DNA of 37,481 bases from Candidatus Zapsychrus exili (GTDB lineage: Bacteria > Omnitrophota > Gorgyraeia > Zapsychrales > Zapsychraceae): NCBI GenBank assembly GCA_030765585.1, contig JAVCCJ010000075.1:1-37481 (forward strand), written 5' to 3'. Below are positions 5,722 through 16,373 of this stretch, one piece after another. The notes beneath the pieces were generated by a model that was not told where the DNA came from, made no database searches, and was given only the letters and a program-made list of their open reading frames with translations. The position numbers and the translations under genes are program-made. Numbering within the stretch: position 1 is the first letter of the stretch; every line of letters begins with the position of its first letter.

Positions 5722-6957
5722 ATGCCTACTAAAATATCTAAGACTAAAAAAACAAGCATAAGCCAAGCGCAAGAGCTTGTTATCTTAAGAGAAATTGTTG
5801 AGATTACAAATTCTAAGTTTGATTTGGAGTCTATTCTTGATCAAGTGGTTAAGATTGTAAATAATACGATGAAGTCAGATTCTGTATTTGTTTATTTGTT
5901 TGATGAACAGTATAAAGAATTTGTTTTGATGGCATCAAAAACACAGCATAAAAAAGAGTTGGGTAAAGTATCTTTGAAAATGGGAGAAGGCATTACGGGT
6001 TGGGTTGCTCGCAAGAACGAATCAGTTGCGATTAGCAAAAATGCATACAAAGATAAGCGTTTTAAGAGTTTTGATGTTCTTCCGGAAGATAGATATGAGG
6101 CTTTTCTTTCTGTCCCGATTATATATAAAGCAAAATCTATCGGCGTTGTTAATATTCAACATAAAAAATCTCATGAATATACAAAGGCTACAGTTGATCT
6201 AATATCTCTTGTTGCAAAACAGATGGGTGGTGTTATTGATAATGCTAGACTTTATGAAGAGACAAAAAAGAAGGCTTTACAGTTTGATAGCTTAGTTAAG
6301 GTAAGCTATTCAATTACATCAGAGGCATACTTAGAGGAAATTCTAAGTTTAATTGTTGTCGTTACCGCCGAGATGTTAAATTCTAAAATATGCTCCATTA
6401 TGCTCTTAGATAAAAAAGGAAAAGACTTAGCTATAAAAGCAACGCAATTTTTAAGTAAGAATTATACAAAGAAGCCGAATGTTAAATTAGATTCAAGTAT
6501 AAGCGGAGAGGTTTTTAAGACAAAGAGTCCCATATCTATTTATGACGTTCGAGAAGAGAAAAAATATGGTTATCGTAATATAGCTGTTAAAGAAAGTTTA
6601 ACGTCAATGCTGTCTGTTCCTATGGTTGTAAAAGATAAGGCAATTGGTATTGTTAATGTTTACACAAAGAAACCACATGTCTTTACAAAAGAAGAAATTG
6701 ATATATTGCAGATGGTAGCTAATCAAGCAGCGGTTGCAGTTGAAAATACAAAGCTTATGGAAGAAACTTTAAAGGCGAAGGAAGCCTTGGAAACTAGAAA
6801 GATTGTTGAGCGCGCAAAAGGGGTATTGATGAAAATAAGCGGCTTAAACGAACAAGAAGCATATAAATTGATTCATAAAAAAAGTATGGATTCTTGCAAA
6901 ACAATGAAAGATGTTGCCGAATCTATACTTCTTATGGAAGAGTTTCGTAAGAAATAA
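5722..6957 (+). CDS. GAF-GAF-ANTAR RNA-binding transcription antiterminator
   Basis: Two GAF-like domains (..GEGITGWVARKNESVAI.., ..SSISGEVFKTKSPISI..); C-terminal RKIVERAKGVLMKISGLNEQEAYKLIHKKSMDSCKTMKDVAESIL is a classical ANTAR three-helix signature. Confidence 0.92.
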   Translation: MPTKISKTKKTSISQAQELVILREIVEITNSKFDLESILDQVVKIVNNTMKSDSVFVYLFDEQYKEFVLMASKTQHKKELGKVSLKMGEGITGWVARKNESVAISKNAYKDKRFKSFDVLPEDRYEAFLSVPIIYKAKSIGVVNIQHKKSHEYTKATVDLISLVAKQMGGVIDNARLYEETKKKALQFDSLVKVSYSITSEAYLEEILSLIVVVTAEMLNSKICSIMLLDKKGKDLAIKATQFLSKNYTKKPNVKLDSSISGEVFKTKSPISIYDVREEKKYGYRNIAVKESLTSMLSVPMVVKDKAIGIVNVYTKKPHVFTKEEIDILQMVANQAAVAVENTKLMEETLKAKEALETRKIVERAKGVLMKISGLNEQEAYKLIHKKSMDSCKTMKDVAESILLMEEFRKK

Positions 6958-6972: not shown

Positions 6973-7332
6973 ATGTTTATTAAGATATTAGGTTGGATTT
7001 GGTTGATAATGGGAATAACTTTCTTAATAAAACCAGAATGGTGTAAATCATATCTCCAGAATAAGGGTATAAAGAAAATAAAAAAGGTTTTAATGGGGAT
7101 AACTATTGTTATAAGCATTTGGCTTATAACTGCAAGTTTTCAATTTTCGGGCATTACTTCAAAGGTTTTGATAGTTTTGGGAATTATTGGAGTAATTAAA
7201 GCATTTATGTTTTTGCGAGGCACAATAGCTGATAAAATGATTAAATTTTTTGCTGACGAACCTCTTTCTTTCTTTAGAATTGCAGCGTGTGGACATATTA
7301 TACTTGCTCTAGTTATAATTTTTATAAAATAA
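6973..7332 (+). CDS. Small integral membrane protein, function unknown
   Basis: 119 aa, several hydrophobic segments, 15 bp after the ANTAR gene. Confidence 0.6.
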   Translation: MFIKILGWIWLIMGITFLIKPEWCKSYLQNKGIKKIKKVLMGITIVISIWLITASFQFSGITSKVLIVLGIIGVIKAFMFLRGTIADKMIKFFADEPLSFFRIAACGHIILALVIIFIK

Positions 7333-7360: not shown

Positions 7361-7389
7361 TTGACAAATAATTTATTTTATTGTATATT
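7361..7389 (+). promoter_or_regulatory. Promoter of glnN leader (TTGACA-17-TATATT)
   Basis: TTGACA 7361-7366, 17 nt spacer, TATATT 7384-7389. Confidence 0.75.
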
Positions 7390-7399
7390 TTAGACAGTT

Positions 7400-7451
7400 G
7401 GGCAAAGAAGTCCTTTTTAAAAACAAAGATGTTTTTGAAAAGGTTTTTTTT
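7400..7451 (+). promoter_or_regulatory. Attenuator unit 1: GGGC-AAAGAA-GUCC hairpin overlapping terminator CCUUUUUAAAAAC-AAAGAU-GUUUUUGAAAAGG-U8
   Basis: Manual pairing: small hairpin 7400-7413; terminator arms 7412-7424 / 7431-7443, T8 at 7444-7451. Confidence 0.75.
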
Positions 7452-7463
7452 ATTTTTATTATT

Positions 7464-7552
7464 CAATTGTTTGTCTTTTGACGGATTAAACAATTGGTTA
7501 GAGACGATGACGTCCTCTTTTAAGGTATAATTCCTTTAAAGAGGATTTTTTT
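7464..7552 (+). promoter_or_regulatory. Attenuator unit 2: CAATTGTTT/AAACAATTG stem, then GAC-GAUGAC-GUC hairpin overlapping a terminator
   Basis: Inverted repeat 7464-7472/7488-7496; hairpin 7503-7514; terminator UCCUCUUUUAAGG/CCUUUAAAGAGGA 7513-7545 followed by T7. Confidence 0.7.
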
Positions 7553-7553
7553 A

Positions 7554-7634
7554 TTTAGCACAGAAGCTAAATAAACTGGACAAAGCAGTCCTTCTTACAA
7601 GCTTGACATAAAAGCTTGAGTGGAGGACTTTTTT
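7554..7634 (+). promoter_or_regulatory. Attenuator unit 3: two-hairpin ANTAR-type site (UUUAGC-ACAGAA-GCUAAA; GGAC-AAAGCA-GUCC) overlapping a terminator
   Basis: P1 7554-7571, P2 7578-7591, terminator arms 7588-7604 / 7612-7628 followed by T6. Confidence 0.82.
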
Positions 7635-7669
7635 GTAGATGAGTAAGCGGCTCCTAAGTTAACGAAGAT

Positions 7670-7743
7670 AAGGTTCTTATGATTTAAAAAATAATCACAA
7701 GGAACCTTTGCTTTTCTGAAAAAGTTGAAAGGCAACAAAGGTT
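7670..7743 (+). promoter_or_regulatory. Possible three-segment RNA switch / fourth weak attenuator in the distal glnN leader
   Basis: AAGGUUCUU (7670-) pairs with AAGGAACCUU (7699-7708), while AACCUUUG (7703-7710) can pair perfectly with CAAAGGUU (7736-7743). Confidence 0.4.
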
Positions 7744-7861
7744 TCTGGGGCTTAAAAGAGTAATTATGGGGTAAATAAGTTTTTATTGAATAAAAGCCCA
7801 AGTTGCTATAATATTAATAATTATATTAAGATTATAAACTATTAAGTTTAGGGAGAGCAAT

Positions 7862-9955
7862 ATGAAAGAAAAAGAAGATGAGATAAAATCAGTTCCAGAT
7901 TATTATGGAGAAAATGTATTTAGTTTAAAGACTATGCGTAATTATCTCTCAGACAAGGCGTATAAAACTTTAAGCGCCACTATAAGAGAGGGTGGAGATT
8001 TAGATCCTAAGATTGCAGATGAAGTGGCTGACGCAATGAAAACTTGGGCTGTATCTAAAGGGGCCACACATTTTACTCATTGGTTTCAACCCTTAACTGG
8101 TACGACAGCAGAAAAACATGACTCTTTTATTTCTCCAGATGGAGAAGGTGGAGTTATGTTGAAGTTTTCTGGTAGAGAACTTATACAGGGTGAGCCGGAT
8201 GCATCAAGTTTTCCTTCAGGAGGTTTAAGACCTACTTTTGAAGCTCGTGGATATACAGGATGGGATCCAACTTCGCCTGCTTTTATTAAGGAGGGACCGA
8301 AATGTTCTACGCTTTGCATCCCGACATACTTTGTTGGTTGGAGAGGCGAAGCTTTAGACAAGAAGACTCCATTATTGCGTTCTATGAAAGTTCTTTCTAG
8401 GGAAGTTTGTAGATTGGGAAAGTTGTTTGGTATTAAATCAGAAGGAAAACAAGCTTATGCAACATTAGGTGGAGAACAAGAGTATTTTTTAATTGATAGA
8501 GATTATTATTACCAAAGGATAGATCTTATACAAACAGGTCGCACATTGTTTGGTAAAGAGCCTGCAAAACATCAGCAAATGTCTGATCATTATTTTGGGG
8601 CTATAAAGAGTAGAATAATGGGTTTTATGGAAGACCTAGATAGAGAAATGTGGAGATTAGGTGCTCCTATTAGAACCCGCCATAATGAAGTTGCGCCTGC
8701 TCAGTTTGAAGTAGCTCCTGTTTTTGAAAGTTTAAATTTAGCAGTTGATCATAATATGCTTTGTATGGAAGTATTGCAAAAAGTTGCTGAGAAGCACGGA
8801 CTTGTTTGTCTTCTTCATGAAAAGCCATTTGCAGGCGTAAATGGTTCAGGAAAGCATAATAATTGGTCAGTTGTTGGTCCAGATGGGAAGAACTGGTTAT
8901 CACCTGGAGATAATCCGCATGAGAACGCAAAGTTTTTAATTATGATTTGCGCTGTTATAAAAGCGGTTGATTCGTATGCTGAACTTCTTCGTGCATCTAT
9001 TGCCTCAGCAGGTAACGATCACAGGCTTGGTTCTCATGAAGCACCACCAGCTATTATTTCAATTTTCTTAGGAGATCAGTTAAATGATATTATTGAGCAA
9101 ATTGAAAAAGGTGGGGCAAAGAGTTCGAAGAAAAGTGGAGAGCTTAAGATAGGTGTAGATGTTTTGCCTGATCTTCCTAAAGATGCAACTGATAGAAATA
9201 GAACTTCTCCTTTTGCTTTTACAGGAGCAAAGTTTGAATTTCGTGCAGTTGGTTCAAATGCGTCCTTAGCTGGTCCAAATATTGTATTAAATACAATTGT
9301 GGCTGAGGCTCTTGATGAGATTTGTGCTGAACTTGAAAAAGCTTCGAAGAAAGAATTCAATGTAGCAGTACATAAGTTATTACAAAAAATAATTAAGAAA
9401 CATAAAAGAGTAATATTCAATGGTGATAATTATACTGATGCTTGGGCGAAAGAAGCGAAATCAAGAGGTTTACCAAATCTTAAGACAACGCCAGAAGCTT
9501 TAGAAGCTTTAAAGGATTCTAAAGTTCTTAGTCTTTTTGAAAAGCATGCTGTTTTAACTAAAACAGAGCTCATGTCTCGTTATGAAGTTTATAAAGAGGT
9601 ATATGACACAACTATTGATTATGAAGCAAAACTTGCTGCTGATATGGTTAAGACAAGCATACTTCCTGTCGCTATTAATTATCAGGAAGAACTTGCTAAC
9701 GCGATAGGATCAGTTGAAGCTACTAATAAAGTAAAATCAACGTCTTCTCGTAAACTTCTTCGCAAGATAACAAGTTTAGTTGAAGAAGCTATAGAGCGTG
9801 TTCATAAATTAGATACAGCTATAGAAAAAGGAGCATCGCTTAAGTCGAAAGCAGCTATGGTTGATTTAAGAAAAACAATTGATGCTCTTGAAGGTTTAGT
9901 GCCAGCCGATATGTGGCCACTTCCTTCATATGCAGAGATGTTGTTTATATTATAA
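7862..9955 (+). CDS. glnN: Type III glutamine synthetase
   Basis: GSIII-style sequence: AVSKGATHFTHWFQPLTGTTAEKHDSF, RTRHNEVAPAQFEVAPVFE, NGSGKHNNWSV, GNDHRLGSHEAPPA. Confidence 0.95.
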   Translation: MKEKEDEIKSVPDYYGENVFSLKTMRNYLSDKAYKTLSATIREGGDLDPKIADEVADAMKTWAVSKGATHFTHWFQPLTGTTAEKHDSFISPDGEGGVMLKFSGRELIQGEPDASSFPSGGLRPTFEARGYTGWDPTSPAFIKEGPKCSTLCIPTYFVGWRGEALDKKTPLLRSMKVLSREVCRLGKLFGIKSEGKQAYATLGGEQEYFLIDRDYYYQRIDLIQTGRTLFGKEPAKHQQMSDHYFGAIKSRIMGFMEDLDREMWRLGAPIRTRHNEVAPAQFEVAPVFESLNLAVDHNMLCMEVLQKVAEKHGLVCLLHEKPFAGVNGSGKHNNWSVVGPDGKNWLSPGDNPHENAKFLIMICAVIKAVDSYAELLRASIASAGNDHRLGSHEAPPAIISIFLGDQLNDIIEQIEKGGAKSSKKSGELKIGVDVLPDLPKDATDRNRTSPFAFTGAKFEFRAVGSNASLAGPNIVLNTIVAEALDEICAELEKASKKEFNVAVHKLLQKIIKKHKRVIFNGDNYTDAWAKEAKSRGLPNLKTTPEALEALKDSKVLSLFEKHAVLTKTELMSRYEVYKEVYDTTIDYEAKLAADMVKTSILPVAINYQEELANAIGSVEATNKVKSTSSRKLLRKITSLVEEAIERVHKLDTAIEKGASLKSKAAMVDLRKTIDALEGLVPADMWPLPSYAEMLFIL

Positions 9956-10029: not shown

Positions 10030-11670
10030 ATGAGAGTCGCTTTAGCACAAATTAATCCAACAGTCGGAGATTTATCTGGCAATAAGCAAAAGGTCATTAG
10101 TTTTATAAAAAAAGCTAAGAGCTTTGATGCAGATATTGTTGTGTTTCCTGAGCTTGTGATATCTGGATATCCGCCGCAGGATCTTATGTATAAAGAACAT
10201 TTTATTAAGAATAATATTAAGACTCTTAATTCGATAGTTAAAGGCATCAAGGGCATCACAGCCATAGTTGGTTTTGTTGATACTGACAGACAAAAAAATA
10301 TTTATAATGCTGCAGCTGTTATATCTGACGGGAAATTAAAAGGAGTTTATCATAAGCAAGAGCTTCCTAATTATGGTGTATTCGATGAGAAAAGATATTT
10401 TAAAAAAGGTGGAAAGGCTAAAAGTTTTTCTTTAAAAGGCGTAAAATTTGGATTAAGTATTTGTGAAGACATTTGGATTGATAATGGGCCATGTAAGCTT
10501 CAAGCGAAATCAGGTGCAAAAGTTATTTTCAATATATCAAGTTCTCCTTATGACCTTGGCAAGTTAAAAGAAAGGGAAAGCCTTTTAAAGAAACGCGCTA
10601 AGGAAACTAGAACGTTTATTTGTTATACGAATTTAGTTGGTGGACAGGATGAACTTGTTTTTGATGGAGGAAGCATTATTGTTGATCCTGGCGGTAACAT
10701 TGTCGCATCTGGAAAGTTATTTGAAGAAGATTTAGTTGTCTATGATTTGCCATTGTTAGATGTAAAAAAGAAAAAAGATTTATGCTCATCAAATACAAAA
10801 CATTTATTTAAGAAGATTAATAAAACAGAACGTATTTACAAGGCATTGGTTTTAGGGACTAGGGATTATATAAAAAAGAATGGTTTTGAAAAGGTTGTTA
10901 TTGGGCTAAGTGGAGGAATAGATTCAGCTCTTGTTGCTACAATAGCAGCTGATGCAATAGGGAGCGCAAATGTTATTGGAATTTCAATGCCATCGAGATA
11001 TACGTCAAAATCTACAAAATCTGATGCTAGTAAGTTTGCTAAGAATCTTGGAATTGATTTTAAAGAGATAGCGATCGAAGATACATTTAAAGTGTATTTG
11101 AAGACTTTAGCTTGTGATTTTAAAGGCAAGAAATCGGATATTACTGAGGAGAATATTCAGGCTCGTATTCGTGGCAATATATTGATGGCGCTATCTAATA
11201 AGTTCGGGTGGATAGTTTTAACAACAGGTAACAAAAGCGAGACTGCTGTTGGATATTGCACATTGTATGGAGATATGTCTGGAGGTTTTGCTGTAATTAA
11301 AGATTTGCTTAAAACAAAAGTATATGAATTGGCAAAAATGAGAAATGCAATAGTAGGTACAGATATCATTCTTAAGTCAATTATAGAGCGTGCGCCAACA
11401 GCTGAATTGAGGAATAATCAGAAAGATCAAGATACTTTGCCGCCTTATGATGTTTTAGATGATATATTAGTTGAATATATAGAAAAGCATAAATCAGTTT
11501 TGCAAATTACAAAGAATAAATATAGTAGATCGATGGTTGAGGACGTTATAAGCAAAGTAGATAGAAGCGAGTATAAGAGAAGGCAGGCTCCACCTGGAAT
11601 TAAAATAACGCAGCGCTCATTTGACAAAGATTGGCGACTTCCTATTACAAATAAATATAAAGGATTTTAG
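10030..11670 (+). CDS. nadE: Glutamine-dependent NAD+ synthetase (nitrilase-like glutaminase + synthetase)
   Basis: N-terminal nitrilase fold (VFPELVISGYPPQD, GLSICEDIW); SGGIDSALVATIAADA PP-loop. Confidence 0.93.
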   Translation: MRVALAQINPTVGDLSGNKQKVISFIKKAKSFDADIVVFPELVISGYPPQDLMYKEHFIKNNIKTLNSIVKGIKGITAIVGFVDTDRQKNIYNAAAVISDGKLKGVYHKQELPNYGVFDEKRYFKKGGKAKSFSLKGVKFGLSICEDIWIDNGPCKLQAKSGAKVIFNISSSPYDLGKLKERESLLKKRAKETRTFICYTNLVGGQDELVFDGGSIIVDPGGNIVASGKLFEEDLVVYDLPLLDVKKKKDLCSSNTKHLFKKINKTERIYKALVLGTRDYIKKNGFEKVVIGLSGGIDSALVATIAADAIGSANVIGISMPSRYTSKSTKSDASKFAKNLGIDFKEIAIEDTFKVYLKTLACDFKGKKSDITEENIQARIRGNILMALSNKFGWIVLTTGNKSETAVGYCTLYGDMSGGFAVIKDLLKTKVYELAKMRNAIVGTDIILKSIIERAPTAELRNNQKDQDTLPPYDVLDDILVEYIEKHKSVLQITKNKYSRSMVEDVISKVDRSEYKRRQAPPGIKITQRSFDKDWRLPITNKYKGF

Positions 11671-11840: not shown

Positions 11841-14800
11841 ATGAACATGTATCCAAAAAAACAAGGACTTTATGATCCAGCTTTTGAGCATGACGCTTGT
11901 GGAGTTGGACTTGTAACCAATATTGATGGCAAGAAATCGAATGATATCGTCTTAAAAGGAATAGAGGTTTTAAATAATTTGCTTCATCGTGGTGCATTGG
12001 CAGGAGACGAGAAAACGGGTGATGGGGCTGGCATTCTTGTGCAAATTCCAGATGCTTTTTTAAGGCGCGAGTGCGGTTCTCTTGGGATTACTTTACCTCC
12101 ATTAGAGAATTATGGTGTGGGTATGATATTTCTTCCTCAAGATAAGAAAGAAAGAAACAAATGCAAAAAGCTTATTGAACAGGTTATTTCAGAGGAAGGA
12201 TTGTTTTGTTTAGGATGGCGCGATGTACCTGCTGATTCAACAGATCTTGGTCAAAAAGCAAAACAGGAGCAGCCTTTTATTGCGCAATGTTTTATTGATG
12301 GTAAAACTTTTGTTGATATTGATTTAGAAAGAAAACTATATGTCATTAGGAAGGTAATTGAAAATCGAGTTAAAGATTCTATAAAGGACCAAGATAGTTT
12401 TTATGTTGTAAGTTTATCGTCGAGAACTATTATCTATAAAGGACTTTTGACCGGGTCGCAGATGATAAGTTTTTATAAAGATTTAAATGATAAAGAATTT
12501 GTTAGCGCTCTAGCTGTTATACATCAACGTTATAGTACAAACACCTTTCCCTCTTGGAAACTTGCTCAGCCATTTAGATATCTTGCCCATAACGGTGAAA
12601 TAAATACGTTACGAGGTAACATAAATCAGATGAAGTCGCGAGAAAAATTGTTAAAATCTGATATTTTTGGAGATGACATAAAAAAACTTTTACCCGTTAT
12701 TGATATATCTGGTAGCGATTCTGCATGTTTAGATAATATGCTAGAACTTTTGGTTGCTTGTGGTAGAGATTTGTCTCATGCGATGATGATGCTTATCCCA
12801 CAGGCCTGGGGATTAAAATATCCAATTGGTCCTGATTTACGAGGTTTTTATGAGTATCATGCTGGGCTGATGGAGCCATGGGATGGTCCTGCTGCTATTG
12901 CATTTACTAATGGAAAACAACTTGGAGCTTTATTGGATCGAAACGGTTTAAGACCAGCTCGATATACAATAACAAAAGATGGTTTTATGGTTCTCGCGTC
13001 AGAGGCTGGTGTTTTAGAGTTCAAGCCAGAGGATATAGTTGAAAAAGGAACGCTAAAGCCAGGAGAGATTATTTTAGTAGACTTAGATAAAAAACGTTTA
13101 ATTAAAAATGGCGAAATTAAAACGTTTTATTCTAGGAGACATCCTTATCGTCGTTGGGTCCAAGAAAATAAATTTGAGCTTAGAGGGCTTTTTAAAGATG
13201 TAGACCCTATGTCGGCTGATTTTCAAAGTTTGCTAAAGCGCCAATCGCTTTTTGGATATACGCGAGAAGATTTAAAAATGATTATAAATCCTATGGCGGC
13301 ACGAGGCTATGAGCCAGTAGGTTCTATGGGAACTGATACTCCTCTTGCAATCTTTTCAGAGAAGCCACAGTTGCTTTATAATTATTTTAAGCAACTTTTT
13401 GCGCAGATCACTAATCCTGCGATTGATCCAATAAGAGAAGAATTGGTTATGTCGCTTATGACTTTTTTAGGGAACGTAGGCAACATACTCACTGAAATTC
13501 CTCAGCATGCTAAGTTGATTAAATTTAGACATCCTATTCTTTCTAATAATGATTTAGATAGAGTGTGTTCTCTTAAAATGAAAGAATTTTGTACTACTAC
13601 TTTGAAAATGTGTTTTGAGTATGAAGGTTCTGGCAATGATTTAGAGAAAGCTTTGCAGAAATTATGTAATGATGCCGAAGCGTCGGTTGTTAAAGGCTGT
13701 TCTATTATTATTTTAAGCGATAGAGACTTAGAAGAAGGTATGACGCCAATTCCAGCATTGCTCGCTGTATCAGCTGTTAATCAACATCTTGTAAGAAAGA
13801 GTATGAAAACAGTTGTTGGTATTGTTGTTGAAACTGGCGAGGCGCGTGAAGTACAACATATGGCGCTTTTGTTAGGTTTTGGAGCAGCTGCAGTGAATCC
13901 TTATCTTGCGCTTGAGACAGTAGCTAATATGTCTGCTCGAAAAATGTTTGATCAAGATGTTGGCATTGCAAAAGCTTTAGAAAATTATATTAATTCTTTG
14001 CGTAAGGGTCTTTTAAAGGTTTTGTCTAAGATGGGAATTTCAACCTTAAGAAGTTATAGAGGGGCTCAAATATTTGAAGTAATAGGAATTAGTTCAGATG
14101 TTATTGATCAATATTTTACTGGAACGTCCTCTAGGATTGGTGGTATTGGGTTAGATGAAATAGCTAAAGAAGCTAACGCACGTTATAAAAGAGCATATTG
14201 TCAGTCGCCGAATGAAGATAAAGTTTTGACTGAAGGTGGTCATTACAGATCTAGGAAAGATGGAGAGAGACATTTGTGGACCGCCGAGTCTGTTAGTAAA
14301 TTACAGTTTGCTGCTAAATCTAATAATTATAAGATTTATAAAGAATATACTTCTTTAATTGATGATCAGTCAAAAAATACTAGCACTATTAGAGGAATGT
14401 TTAAGTTCAAAAAGACAAAGCCTATTTCTATAGATGAAGTTGAGCCTGTTTCTTCTATAGTTAAGCGTTTTGCAACATCTGCGATGTCTTTTGGATCAGT
14501 TAGTCGGGAAATTCATGAAACTTTAGCAATTGCAATGAATAGACTTGGCGCGATGAGCAATAGCGGTGAAGGAGGAGAAGACCCAGAAAGATATAAGTTG
14601 ATGCCTAACGGTGATAATAAATCAAGCGCTGTTAAGCAAGTTGCAAGTGGACGTTTTGGAGTAACTACTGAATATCTTACTAATGCTCGAGAAATTCAGA
14701 TTAAAATAGCGCAAGGAGCAAAACCTGGAGAAGGCGGTCAGCTTCCTGGTCATAAAGTTAATGAAGAAATAGCAAGAGTTCGTCATTCAACTCCAGGAGT

Positions 14801-16373
14801 AACATTAATTTCACCACCACCACATCATGATATTTATTCTATAGAAGATATTAAGCAGCTTATTTTTGATTTGAGAAATGTTAATCCTCAGGCTCGTGTA
14901 TCAGTTAAACTTGTTTCAGAAGCGGGAATTGGAACAATTGCAGCCGGTGTTGCTAAAGCAAAAGCTGATATGGTTTTAATTAGCGGATACGATGGAGGGA
15001 CAGGAGCATCTCCTTTATCATCTTTAAAACATGCAGGTGCTCCATGGGAATTAGGTCTTGCCGAAACTCAACAGACTCTTGTTTTAAATGCTCTTAGAAG
15101 CAGCATACGTATTCAATCTGATGGGCAAATGAAAACAGGACGAGATATTATTATCGCTGCTTTGCTTGGAGCTGAGGAGTTTGGTTTTGCGACAGTTCCT
15201 CTAGTTGTTTGTGGTTGTATTATGATGCGCAAGTGTCATTTAAATACATGTCCTATTGGAATTGCAACTCAAGATCCTGAGCTACGTAAACGATTTGTCG
15301 GTAAACCTGAACATGTGGTTAATTTCTTTAACATGATAGCAGGGGAAATAAGAGAGTATATGGCAGAGCTTGGTATTAAGAAAATGGATGACATGATTGG
15401 TAGAAGTGATCTTTTAGAAATGAATGATGCTATTGATTTCTGGAAGTCAAAAGGATTGGATTTGTCTAATATTCTTGCGCGCCCCTATGACGGGAAAGAC
15501 GTTGCAATGAGATGTTTTAAGGGGCAGAAACATAATATGGAAAAGCTGCTAGATGTTGAGCTTATTGATAAGGCCAAAGAAGCGTTAGAATCTAAAAAAC
15601 CTGTAAAGATTGATTTGCCTATAAAAAATACAAATTTAACTACAGGAGCGATGTTATCAGGAGAGATTACAAAACGTTATGGTCGCGAAGGCCTTTGTGA
15701 AGATACGATTGTGTGCGCATTCAAAGGGTCTGCTGGTCAGAGTTTTGGAGCTTTTGCTACTTATGGACTAACTCTTGTACTTGAAGGTGAAGCTAATGAT
15801 TATTTAGGAAAAGGTATGTGTGGAGGTAAAATTATTGTAAAGCTGCCGAAAGGCTCAACGCTTGATGCGTCTAAAAATACTATTTGCGGAAATGTTCTTT
15901 TGTATGGAGCAACTTTCGGAGAGGTCTACATTAATGGTTTAGTTGGAGAACGTTTTGCTATAAGAAACAGTGGAGTTAATGTTGTAGTGGAGGGCGCTGG
16001 AGATCATAGCTGTGAATATATGACAGGAGGACGTGTTGTTATTTTAGGTGATACTGGGGTAAATTTTGCTGCAGGTATGAGCGGAGGTATAGCCTATGTT
16101 TATGACCCTAATAGCAAGTTTGATGGAAGATGTAACCTTGATATGGTTGATTTAGAAATTGTTTCCGAAGACGAGGATATTGTTGAGCTTCGTACTATGA
16201 TAGAAAAACATTTTCAGAATACAGGCAGTTTAAAGGCTCGTGATATATTGGATAATTGGGAAAGTTGTTTGCCTTCGTTTGTTAAGGTTTTTCCTATGGA
16301 ATATCGTAAAGTTTTAGGAAAAATGACTAAAGAAGACGAGAACACAGAAAGAAAAGAAGTTTTATTTAAATAA
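11841..16373 (+). CDS. gltB: Glutamate synthase large subunit
   Basis: 1510 aa; HDACGVG class II GATase start, GEGGEDPERY, KPGEGGQLPGHKV, GYDGGTGASPLSS, C-terminal GXGXG repeats. Confidence 0.96.
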   Translation: MNMYPKKQGLYDPAFEHDACGVGLVTNIDGKKSNDIVLKGIEVLNNLLHRGALAGDEKTGDGAGILVQIPDAFLRRECGSLGITLPPLENYGVGMIFLPQDKKERNKCKKLIEQVISEEGLFCLGWRDVPADSTDLGQKAKQEQPFIAQCFIDGKTFVDIDLERKLYVIRKVIENRVKDSIKDQDSFYVVSLSSRTIIYKGLLTGSQMISFYKDLNDKEFVSALAVIHQRYSTNTFPSWKLAQPFRYLAHNGEINTLRGNINQMKSREKLLKSDIFGDDIKKLLPVIDISGSDSACLDNMLELLVACGRDLSHAMMMLIPQAWGLKYPIGPDLRGFYEYHAGLMEPWDGPAAIAFTNGKQLGALLDRNGLRPARYTITKDGFMVLASEAGVLEFKPEDIVEKGTLKPGEIILVDLDKKRLIKNGEIKTFYSRRHPYRRWVQENKFELRGLFKDVDPMSADFQSLLKRQSLFGYTREDLKMIINPMAARGYEPVGSMGTDTPLAIFSEKPQLLYNYFKQLFAQITNPAIDPIREELVMSLMTFLGNVGNILTEIPQHAKLIKFRHPILSNNDLDRVCSLKMKEFCTTTLKMCFEYEGSGNDLEKALQKLCNDAEASVVKGCSIIILSDRDLEEGMTPIPALLAVSAVNQHLVRKSMKTVVGIVVETGEAREVQHMALLLGFGAAAVNPYLALETVANMSARKMFDQDVGIAKALENYINSLRKGLLKVLSKMGISTLRSYRGAQIFEVIGISSDVIDQYFTGTSSRIGGIGLDEIAKEANARYKRAYCQSPNEDKVLTEGGHYRSRKDGERHLWTAESVSKLQFAAKSNNYKIYKEYTSLIDDQSKNTSTIRGMFKFKKTKPISIDEVEPVSSIVKRFATSAMSFGSVSREIHETLAIAMNRLGAMSNSGEGGEDPERYKLMPNGDNKSSAVKQVASGRFGVTTEYLTNAREIQIKIAQGAKPGEGGQLPGHKVNEEIARVRHSTPGVTLISPPPHHDIYSIEDIKQLIFDLRNVNPQARVSVKLVSEAGIGTIAAGVAKAKADMVLISGYDGGTGASPLSSLKHAGAPWELGLAETQQTLVLNALRSSIRIQSDGQMKTGRDIIIAALLGAEEFGFATVPLVVCGCIMMRKCHLNTCPIGIATQDPELRKRFVGKPEHVVNFFNMIAGEIREYMAELGIKKMDDMIGRSDLLEMNDAIDFWKSKGLDLSNILARPYDGKDVAMRCFKGQKHNMEKLLDVELIDKAKEALESKKPVKIDLPIKNTNLTTGAMLSGEITKRYGREGLCEDTIVCAFKGSAGQSFGAFATYGLTLVLEGEANDYLGKGMCGGKIIVKLPKGSTLDASKNTICGNVLLYGATFGEVYINGLVGERFAIRNSGVNVVVEGAGDHSCEYMTGGRVVILGDTGVNFAAGMSGGIAYVYDPNSKFDGRCNLDMVDLEIVSEDEDIVELRTMIEKHFQNTGSLKARDILDNWESCLPSFVKVFPMEYRKVLGKMTKEDENTERKEVLFK

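Follow-up and report, generated by a model that had tools for sequence, protein, structure and literature searches.

The window, that is the whole stretch of 37,481 nucleotides analysed here, contains the gene glnN (7862..9955, plus strand), the putative target of regulation, which encodes a type III glutamine synthetase (GSIII; Pfam GSIII_N 3.6e-76, Gln-synt_C-ter 2.6e-41). The nearest named relatives of this GSIII belong to Candidatus Omnitrophota. Its neighbour is a NAD synthetase gene (10030-11670), and the open reading frame at 11841-16373 resembles, by its sequence, a gene for glutamate synthase. Upstream of glnN, on the same strand, lies the gene of a GAF-GAF-ANTAR protein, ANTAR1 (5722..6957; Pfam GAF_2 7.7e-38 in two stretches, ANTAR 2.7e-20). 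The genome contains two such genes, ANTAR1 and ANTAR2. Between the ANTAR1 gene and the glnN leader there is an ORF of 119 amino acids (6973-7332), membrane-protein-like and with no Pfam match.

ANTAR proteins bind hexaloops with A at position 1 and G at position 4 (A1 and G4; PMC3369931, PMC8934654). In the alignment of ANTAR1 with EutV, ANTAR1 retains every one of the G4-contact residues (R142, K149, E160 and Y164), as well as K143 and the plug residue M172. Unlike the G4 contacts, several EutV backbone contacts are altered; the differing positions are K147->R, R168->H, N173->D, R175->C and R177->T. Thus ANTAR1 is the likely antiterminator of the leader. Among solved structures, its N-terminal GAF domain is closest to that of PtsP (3ci6, 1.4e-25; 3trc, 8.5e-18). 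PtsP, of the EI-Ntr type, is an enzyme of the nitrogen PTS, and the presence of a PtsP-type GAF domain in ANTAR1 suggests sensing of the nitrogen status.

Structure of the glnN leader

The leader is preceded by a sigma-70-type promoter (7361..7389, plus strand) with TTGACA (7361-7366) and TATATT (7384-7389) boxes at a distance of 17 nucleotides, matching the consensus in 11 of 12 positions; promoters of a comparable strong class precede most glnN leaders of related genomes. The transcript, judged by the promoter position, starts near 7396. Three units follow on the plus strand, and in all of them the 5' arm of a terminator overlaps the GUCC arm of a preceding hairpin with a six-nucleotide loop. 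At site 1, the candidate antiterminator hairpin GGGC(AAAGAA)GUCC (7400..7413) has an A1/G4 hexaloop and is located 10 nt past the -10 box. As the predicted transcript start lies about 4 nt upstream of this hairpin, there is no room for a recruitment hairpin P1 here. The terminator T1 (7412..7451) consists of a stem (7412-7443) and eight U extending to 7451, and its apex AAAAAC(AAAGAU)GUUUUU is an A1/G4 hexaloop too.

Site 2 is the weakest candidate. In the minimum free energy fold it starts with a P1-like hairpin (7463..7497) whose hexaloop UUUGAC has G4 but U1. The antiterminator hairpin AGAC(GAUGAC)GUCC (7502..7515) is sub-canonical, with G4 and G1 in the loop and an A.C mismatch at the base. 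As a hexaloop hairpin it retains three pairs; alone it folds better into GACG(AUGA)CGUC, as pairing of G1 with C6 closes the loop to a tetraloop. It is followed by terminator T2 (7512..7552; stem 7512-7546, U tract to 7552). Site 3 includes both hairpins, P1 UUUAUUUAGC(ACAGAA)GCUAAAUAAA (7550..7575) and P2, the antiterminator hairpin GGAC(AAAGCA)GUCC (7578..7591), each with an A1/G4 loop (z-score -4.85 for the two jointly) and separated by a linker of 2 nt, which grows to 6 nt on opening of the outer four pairs of P1. Terminator T3 (7587..7634) has a stem at 7587-7629 and a U tract to 7634. The tips of T2 and T3 are 7-nt loops. An additional hairpin after T3, at 7670-7708 (-12.2 kcal/mol), lacks coupling to a hexaloop, and its U tract (UGCUUUUC) is poor.

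Alone, the short hairpins have energies of -3.4 to -4.0 kcal/mol, whereas T1, T2 and T3 have -13.0, -15.2 and -20.0 kcal/mol, respectively. As the terminators are far more stable than the competing short hairpins, termination is the expected default. The z-scores against dinucleotide shuffles are -3.4, -4.9 and -6.1. Complete units, defined as RNNGNN (G4) hexaloop hairpins overlapping a terminator, occur three times at 7390-7640 and not once in 500 dinucleotide shuffles. A simple terminator scanner called T1 alone, passing over T2 and T3 because of internal mismatches in both stems. The covariance model R1 matches all three terminators: T1 with 58.6 bits (E 1.1e-13), T2 with 47.5 bits (E 2.0e-10) and T3 with 38.3 bits (E 9.0e-8). 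In the R1 search of the window, no ANTAR unit was found before other genes, and the next best match after the three had E 0.86.

The original prediction, namely a TTGACA-17-TATATT promoter followed by three intrinsic terminators, is thus borne out by the promoter match, the folds and the shuffles. The sharing of the terminator 5' arms with short preceding hairpins ending in GUCC or GUC is seen at all three sites, and the predicted 3' ends (7451, 7552 and 7634) agree with the computed ends of the U tracts. It was also claimed that RNA polymerase must pass all three terminators to reach glnN. The claim is weakened by a perfect extended -10 box TGCTATAAT at 7804-7812, between T3 and the glnN start, which might be a terminator-independent promoter. 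Since such internal boxes are not enriched in other leaders (2 observed, 1.04 expected), this one is a caveat rather than a demonstrated promoter. A candidate sigma-54 promoter near 7802 was rejected by inspection, as it has no GG at -24.

Conservation of the units and their link to nitrogen genes

The comparison set consisted of 55 genomes of the order, all from genera other than that of the window. GSIII and the GAF-GAF-ANTAR protein are present in nearly all of them, and in about 32 of the 55 their genes are at most 20 kb apart. Most glnN leaders that start at their own promoter contain a hairpin-terminator unit. Where glnN follows glnB, the units sit further upstream, e.g. before amtB in G001, G041 and G047. 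In GSIII-proximal loci, fetched by the position of GSIII alone, 34 units were picked on stem and terminator alone, whatever their loop; G4 is present in 34/34 of them, and position 1 is A in 30, G in 3 and T in 1. For all loci together the counts are 100/101 (G4), 81/101 (A1) and 18/101 (G1), the former figure of 34/34 being the clean one, as the larger set was partly fetched via a model trained on G4 units. The terminator stem covaries, with 68 two-sided cells compared to 19.3 +/- 4.4 after shuffling, and also exceeds the slid controls. The P2 stem is nearly invariant across homologous units, and its pairing thus has no independent covariation support. In G018 and G001, the sequence AAGAATTGTGATATAACTCTAAG about 60 nt before glnN (L035, L036) is retained despite different upstream genes; it could be an internal promoter or operator.

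Triple arrays were observed in the window and in eight genomes (G001, G018, G017, G033, G046, G002, G041 and G047), and arrays of two in about a dozen other cases. Where the downstream gene could be identified, the triple arrays precede amtB or a gene for an outer-membrane-like (envelope) protein. They are retained between species of one genus in the pairs G001/G018 and G041/G047, and in these two genera the stems change in a compensatory manner; in G044 the middle site of the array is degenerate. The glnN leaders of the relatives, which are from other genera, mostly have one unit; there are two in G018, and three in the window alone. Some P1 hairpins resemble units that have lost their terminator.

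There are four occurrences of the motif GGRCRNNGNNGTCC in the 2.04 Mb genome, all of them in the leaders of glnN and ANTAR2, compared to ten of the reversed control pattern. The seven best R1 matches (down to E 2.3e-4) are confined to two contigs, with three at the glnN leader and four on the second contig. Of the latter, two are located ahead of the ANTAR2 gene, a third falls between this gene and that of a membrane-type protein, and the weakest one is further along the contig. This second locus (L083, G000:C12, 3090-9661) is composed of a two-unit leader, GAF-GAF-ANTAR2, one unit, an outer-membrane-like protein with no Pfam match, amtB, glnB and a PtsP-like enzyme containing a GAF domain. 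Since units precede its gene, ANTAR2 appears to be autoregulated (positively), whereas ANTAR1 does not.

R1 matches were found in 51 of the 55 genomes. At the level of the phylum they co-occur with ANTAR genes (69/75 vs 108/162, odds ratio 5.75, p 1.2e-5; as the genomes are related, such p-values are only indicative). In G036, which is 98% complete, ANTAR, GSIII and R1 matches are all absent. G002, from the same family as the window genome, has six ANTAR-type units and no ANTAR domain in a 95% complete assembly, which may reflect a gap in the assembly or reading by some other protein. Around the GSIII genes of other phyla, only weak R1 matches turned up, the one directly before GSIII (Desulfosporosinus, L131 5908-5963) having E 0.09. 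Judged by this distribution, nitrogen genes throughout the order lie behind a candidate ANTAR-type switch, which frequently comes as a pair or a triplet.

Comparison with known ANTAR elements

The leader resembles the EutV/eutP-type antitermination of E. faecalis, and also NasR-nasF and AmiR-amiE, in the hairpin with a G4, mostly A1, hexaloop and a 3' arm that doubles as the 5' arm of the terminator (PMC3369931, PMC8934654). Other features shared with the EutV class are the ANTAR protein retaining the G4-contact residues and the nitrogen gene downstream. Unlike these systems, there are three units per leader, and the protein is GAF-GAF-ANTAR rather than REC-ANTAR or NIT-ANTAR. EutV needs two hexaloops, which in the eut genes are 5-12 nt apart; distances of 3 and 14 nt impair the function (PMC3369931, PMC8934654), and lengthening of the linker by 20 nt abolishes it (PMC8934654). 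In contrast, site 1 here has no P1, the P1-P2 linkers of the relatives often measure 26-57 nt, beyond the EutV limit, and hexaloops are often found at terminator tips.

An upstream RNNGNN hairpin is present in 58 of 100 units, compared to 7.8 +/- 2.3 in mononucleotide shuffles. These hairpins are mostly found at two distances, 2-16 and 26-57 nt, and in arrays some of them are the hairpin of the previous unit. The first hexaloop is 10-26 nt past the -10 box in at least 14 of 29 glnN leaders. In the window, G018, G005, G008, G050, G045 and G009 the first hairpin is already coupled to a terminator, leaving no room for P1. An RNNGNN hexaloop at the terminator tip was observed in 37/100 ANTAR units and in 42/345 other terminators from the same loci (37% vs 12%, p 8e-8; p 6e-5 with one per locus). 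In genus g28 the closing pairs at the tip shift from CC/GG to CU/AG, and the loop stays RNNGAA. The possibility that two ANTAR paralogues read A1 and G1 loops as an AND gate was considered and rejected, as tandem sites show no excess of G1 (p 0.43), and G1 is also found in genomes with a single ANTAR gene.

Serial arrangement of several terminator/antiterminator pairs before one gene is known from tandem T-box leaders, e.g. that of thrZ in B. subtilis. The layout is the same, whereas the effector of thrZ is a tRNA rather than a protein, and the RNAs are unrelated. According to Ramesh et al. 2012 (PMC3369931), at least 13 ANTAR attenuators control six nitrogen-metabolism transcription units of Desulfotomaculum acetoxidans. 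This system is similar in having several ANTAR sites per unit in nitrogen metabolism, as far as the counts given there allow comparison; the phylum and the gene set are different. In Clostridium saccharobutylicum, ANTAR antitermination by NitR induces the GS/GOGAT genes upon nitrogen limitation (cited in PMC6316151). That is another regulator in another organism, and the accessible part of the source does not mention a triple array.

Thus ANTAR attenuation of nitrogen genes, the presence of several sites per transcription unit and ANTAR control of Clostridium glutamine synthetase genes are already known. The original suggestion that the arrangement is undescribed for GSIII has to be qualified, since multi-site ANTAR leaders and ANTAR control of glutamine synthetase have been published (PMC3369931, PMC6316151). 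The open-access literature on ANTAR together with type III glutamine synthetase, tandem terminators or Omnitrophota yielded no earlier report of this type of locus. As far as that literature goes, the Omnitrophota regulon, the triple array at GSIII, the sites with no P1, the long linkers and the hexaloops at terminator tips appear to be new.

Proposed mechanism and alternatives

We consider it very likely that the glnN leader consists of three ANTAR-controlled transcription attenuators in series. Loop conservation, terminator covariation, synteny, the RNA-contact residues and genome-wide specificity support terminator/antiterminator pairs and a link of these to the neighbouring ANTAR protein, as originally predicted; the anatomy of the units, their conservation, their confinement to nitrogen loci and the presence of an ANTAR protein are all directly visible at the sequence level. 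By default, each nascent terminator would outcompete its short hairpin, and transcription from the promoter at 7361 would end before glnN. Under nitrogen limitation, binding of the G4 hexaloops by the GAF-GAF-ANTAR protein would keep the GUCC arm within the short hairpin. The base of the terminator stem could then not form, and the polymerase would clear T1, T2 and T3 in turn. Three sites in series plausibly multiply their leakage factors, and each of them would have to be occupied, so that lower leakage and a steeper response may be expected; this multiplicative stringency is arithmetic rather than evidence. Several observations count against ANTAR control: site 1 has no P1, site 2 is sub-canonical, the P2 stem is nearly invariant, no ANTAR gene was found in G002, and there is a possible promoter at 7804-7812.

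It is very unlikely that the three terminators are a plain insulator ending the transcript of the upstream ANTAR operon, with glnN transcribed from the extended -10 box at 7804-7812. The perfect TGCTATAAT match and the position of the terminators after the operon end at 7332 agree with such a role. However, a strong promoter lies between the operon and T1, and a conserved G4 hexaloop hairpin accompanies each of the three terminators, in contrast to other terminators. Moreover, in dozens of relatives with differing upstream genes the same units are found ahead of amtB and glnN, and internal extended -10 boxes, as mentioned above, are not enriched. Even less credible is control of the three terminators by another leader mechanism, such as a glutamine riboswitch, T-box or leader-peptide attenuation. 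Riboswitches of the glnA type and tandem T-boxes do exist for such genes; however, the leader matches no Rfam family at the gathering score, the matches below that score are to unrelated families, and it is precisely the ANTAR hexaloop that is conserved.

A stronger, though still doubtful, alternative retains ANTAR control and takes the copies to be redundant or to have decayed in part, so that three act like one or two and their number drifts by duplication and loss. Consistent with this are the deviation of site 2 in both loops, the mostly single-unit glnN leaders of the relatives and the P1 hairpins that look like units without their former terminator. On the other hand, T2 is a fully formed terminator with a high-scoring R1 match, and triple arrays are kept in two genera with compensatory changes in the stems.

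Under ANTAR control, a possible elaboration, which we propose only tentatively, is a daisy chain, suggested by the excess of tip hexaloops and by a few adjacent units in relatives. If the base of a terminator is held open, the upper hairpin may serve as a further ANTAR loop, either as the partner for a unit with no P1, such as site 1 of the window, or by acting as P1, the recruitment hairpin, for the next unit. In G001, G018, G033, G032, G041 and G047 the terminator tip is 4-14 nt from the next unit. In the window the model fits T1 but not T2 and T3 with their 7-nt tip loops. If it is true, passing one terminator loads the antiterminator for the next, and the switch would be processive, not merely multiplicative.

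These observations widen the range of ANTAR antitermination by a conserved nitrogen regulon in an uncultured phylum, comprising glnN, amtB, glnB and an ANTAR gene, with a GAF-GAF-ANTAR protein as the likely sensor. The sites with no P1 and the hexaloops at terminator tips bear on whether ANTAR proteins need one hexaloop or two. With the natural series of leaders that have one, two and three copies, the reason for stacking regulators can be tested directly.
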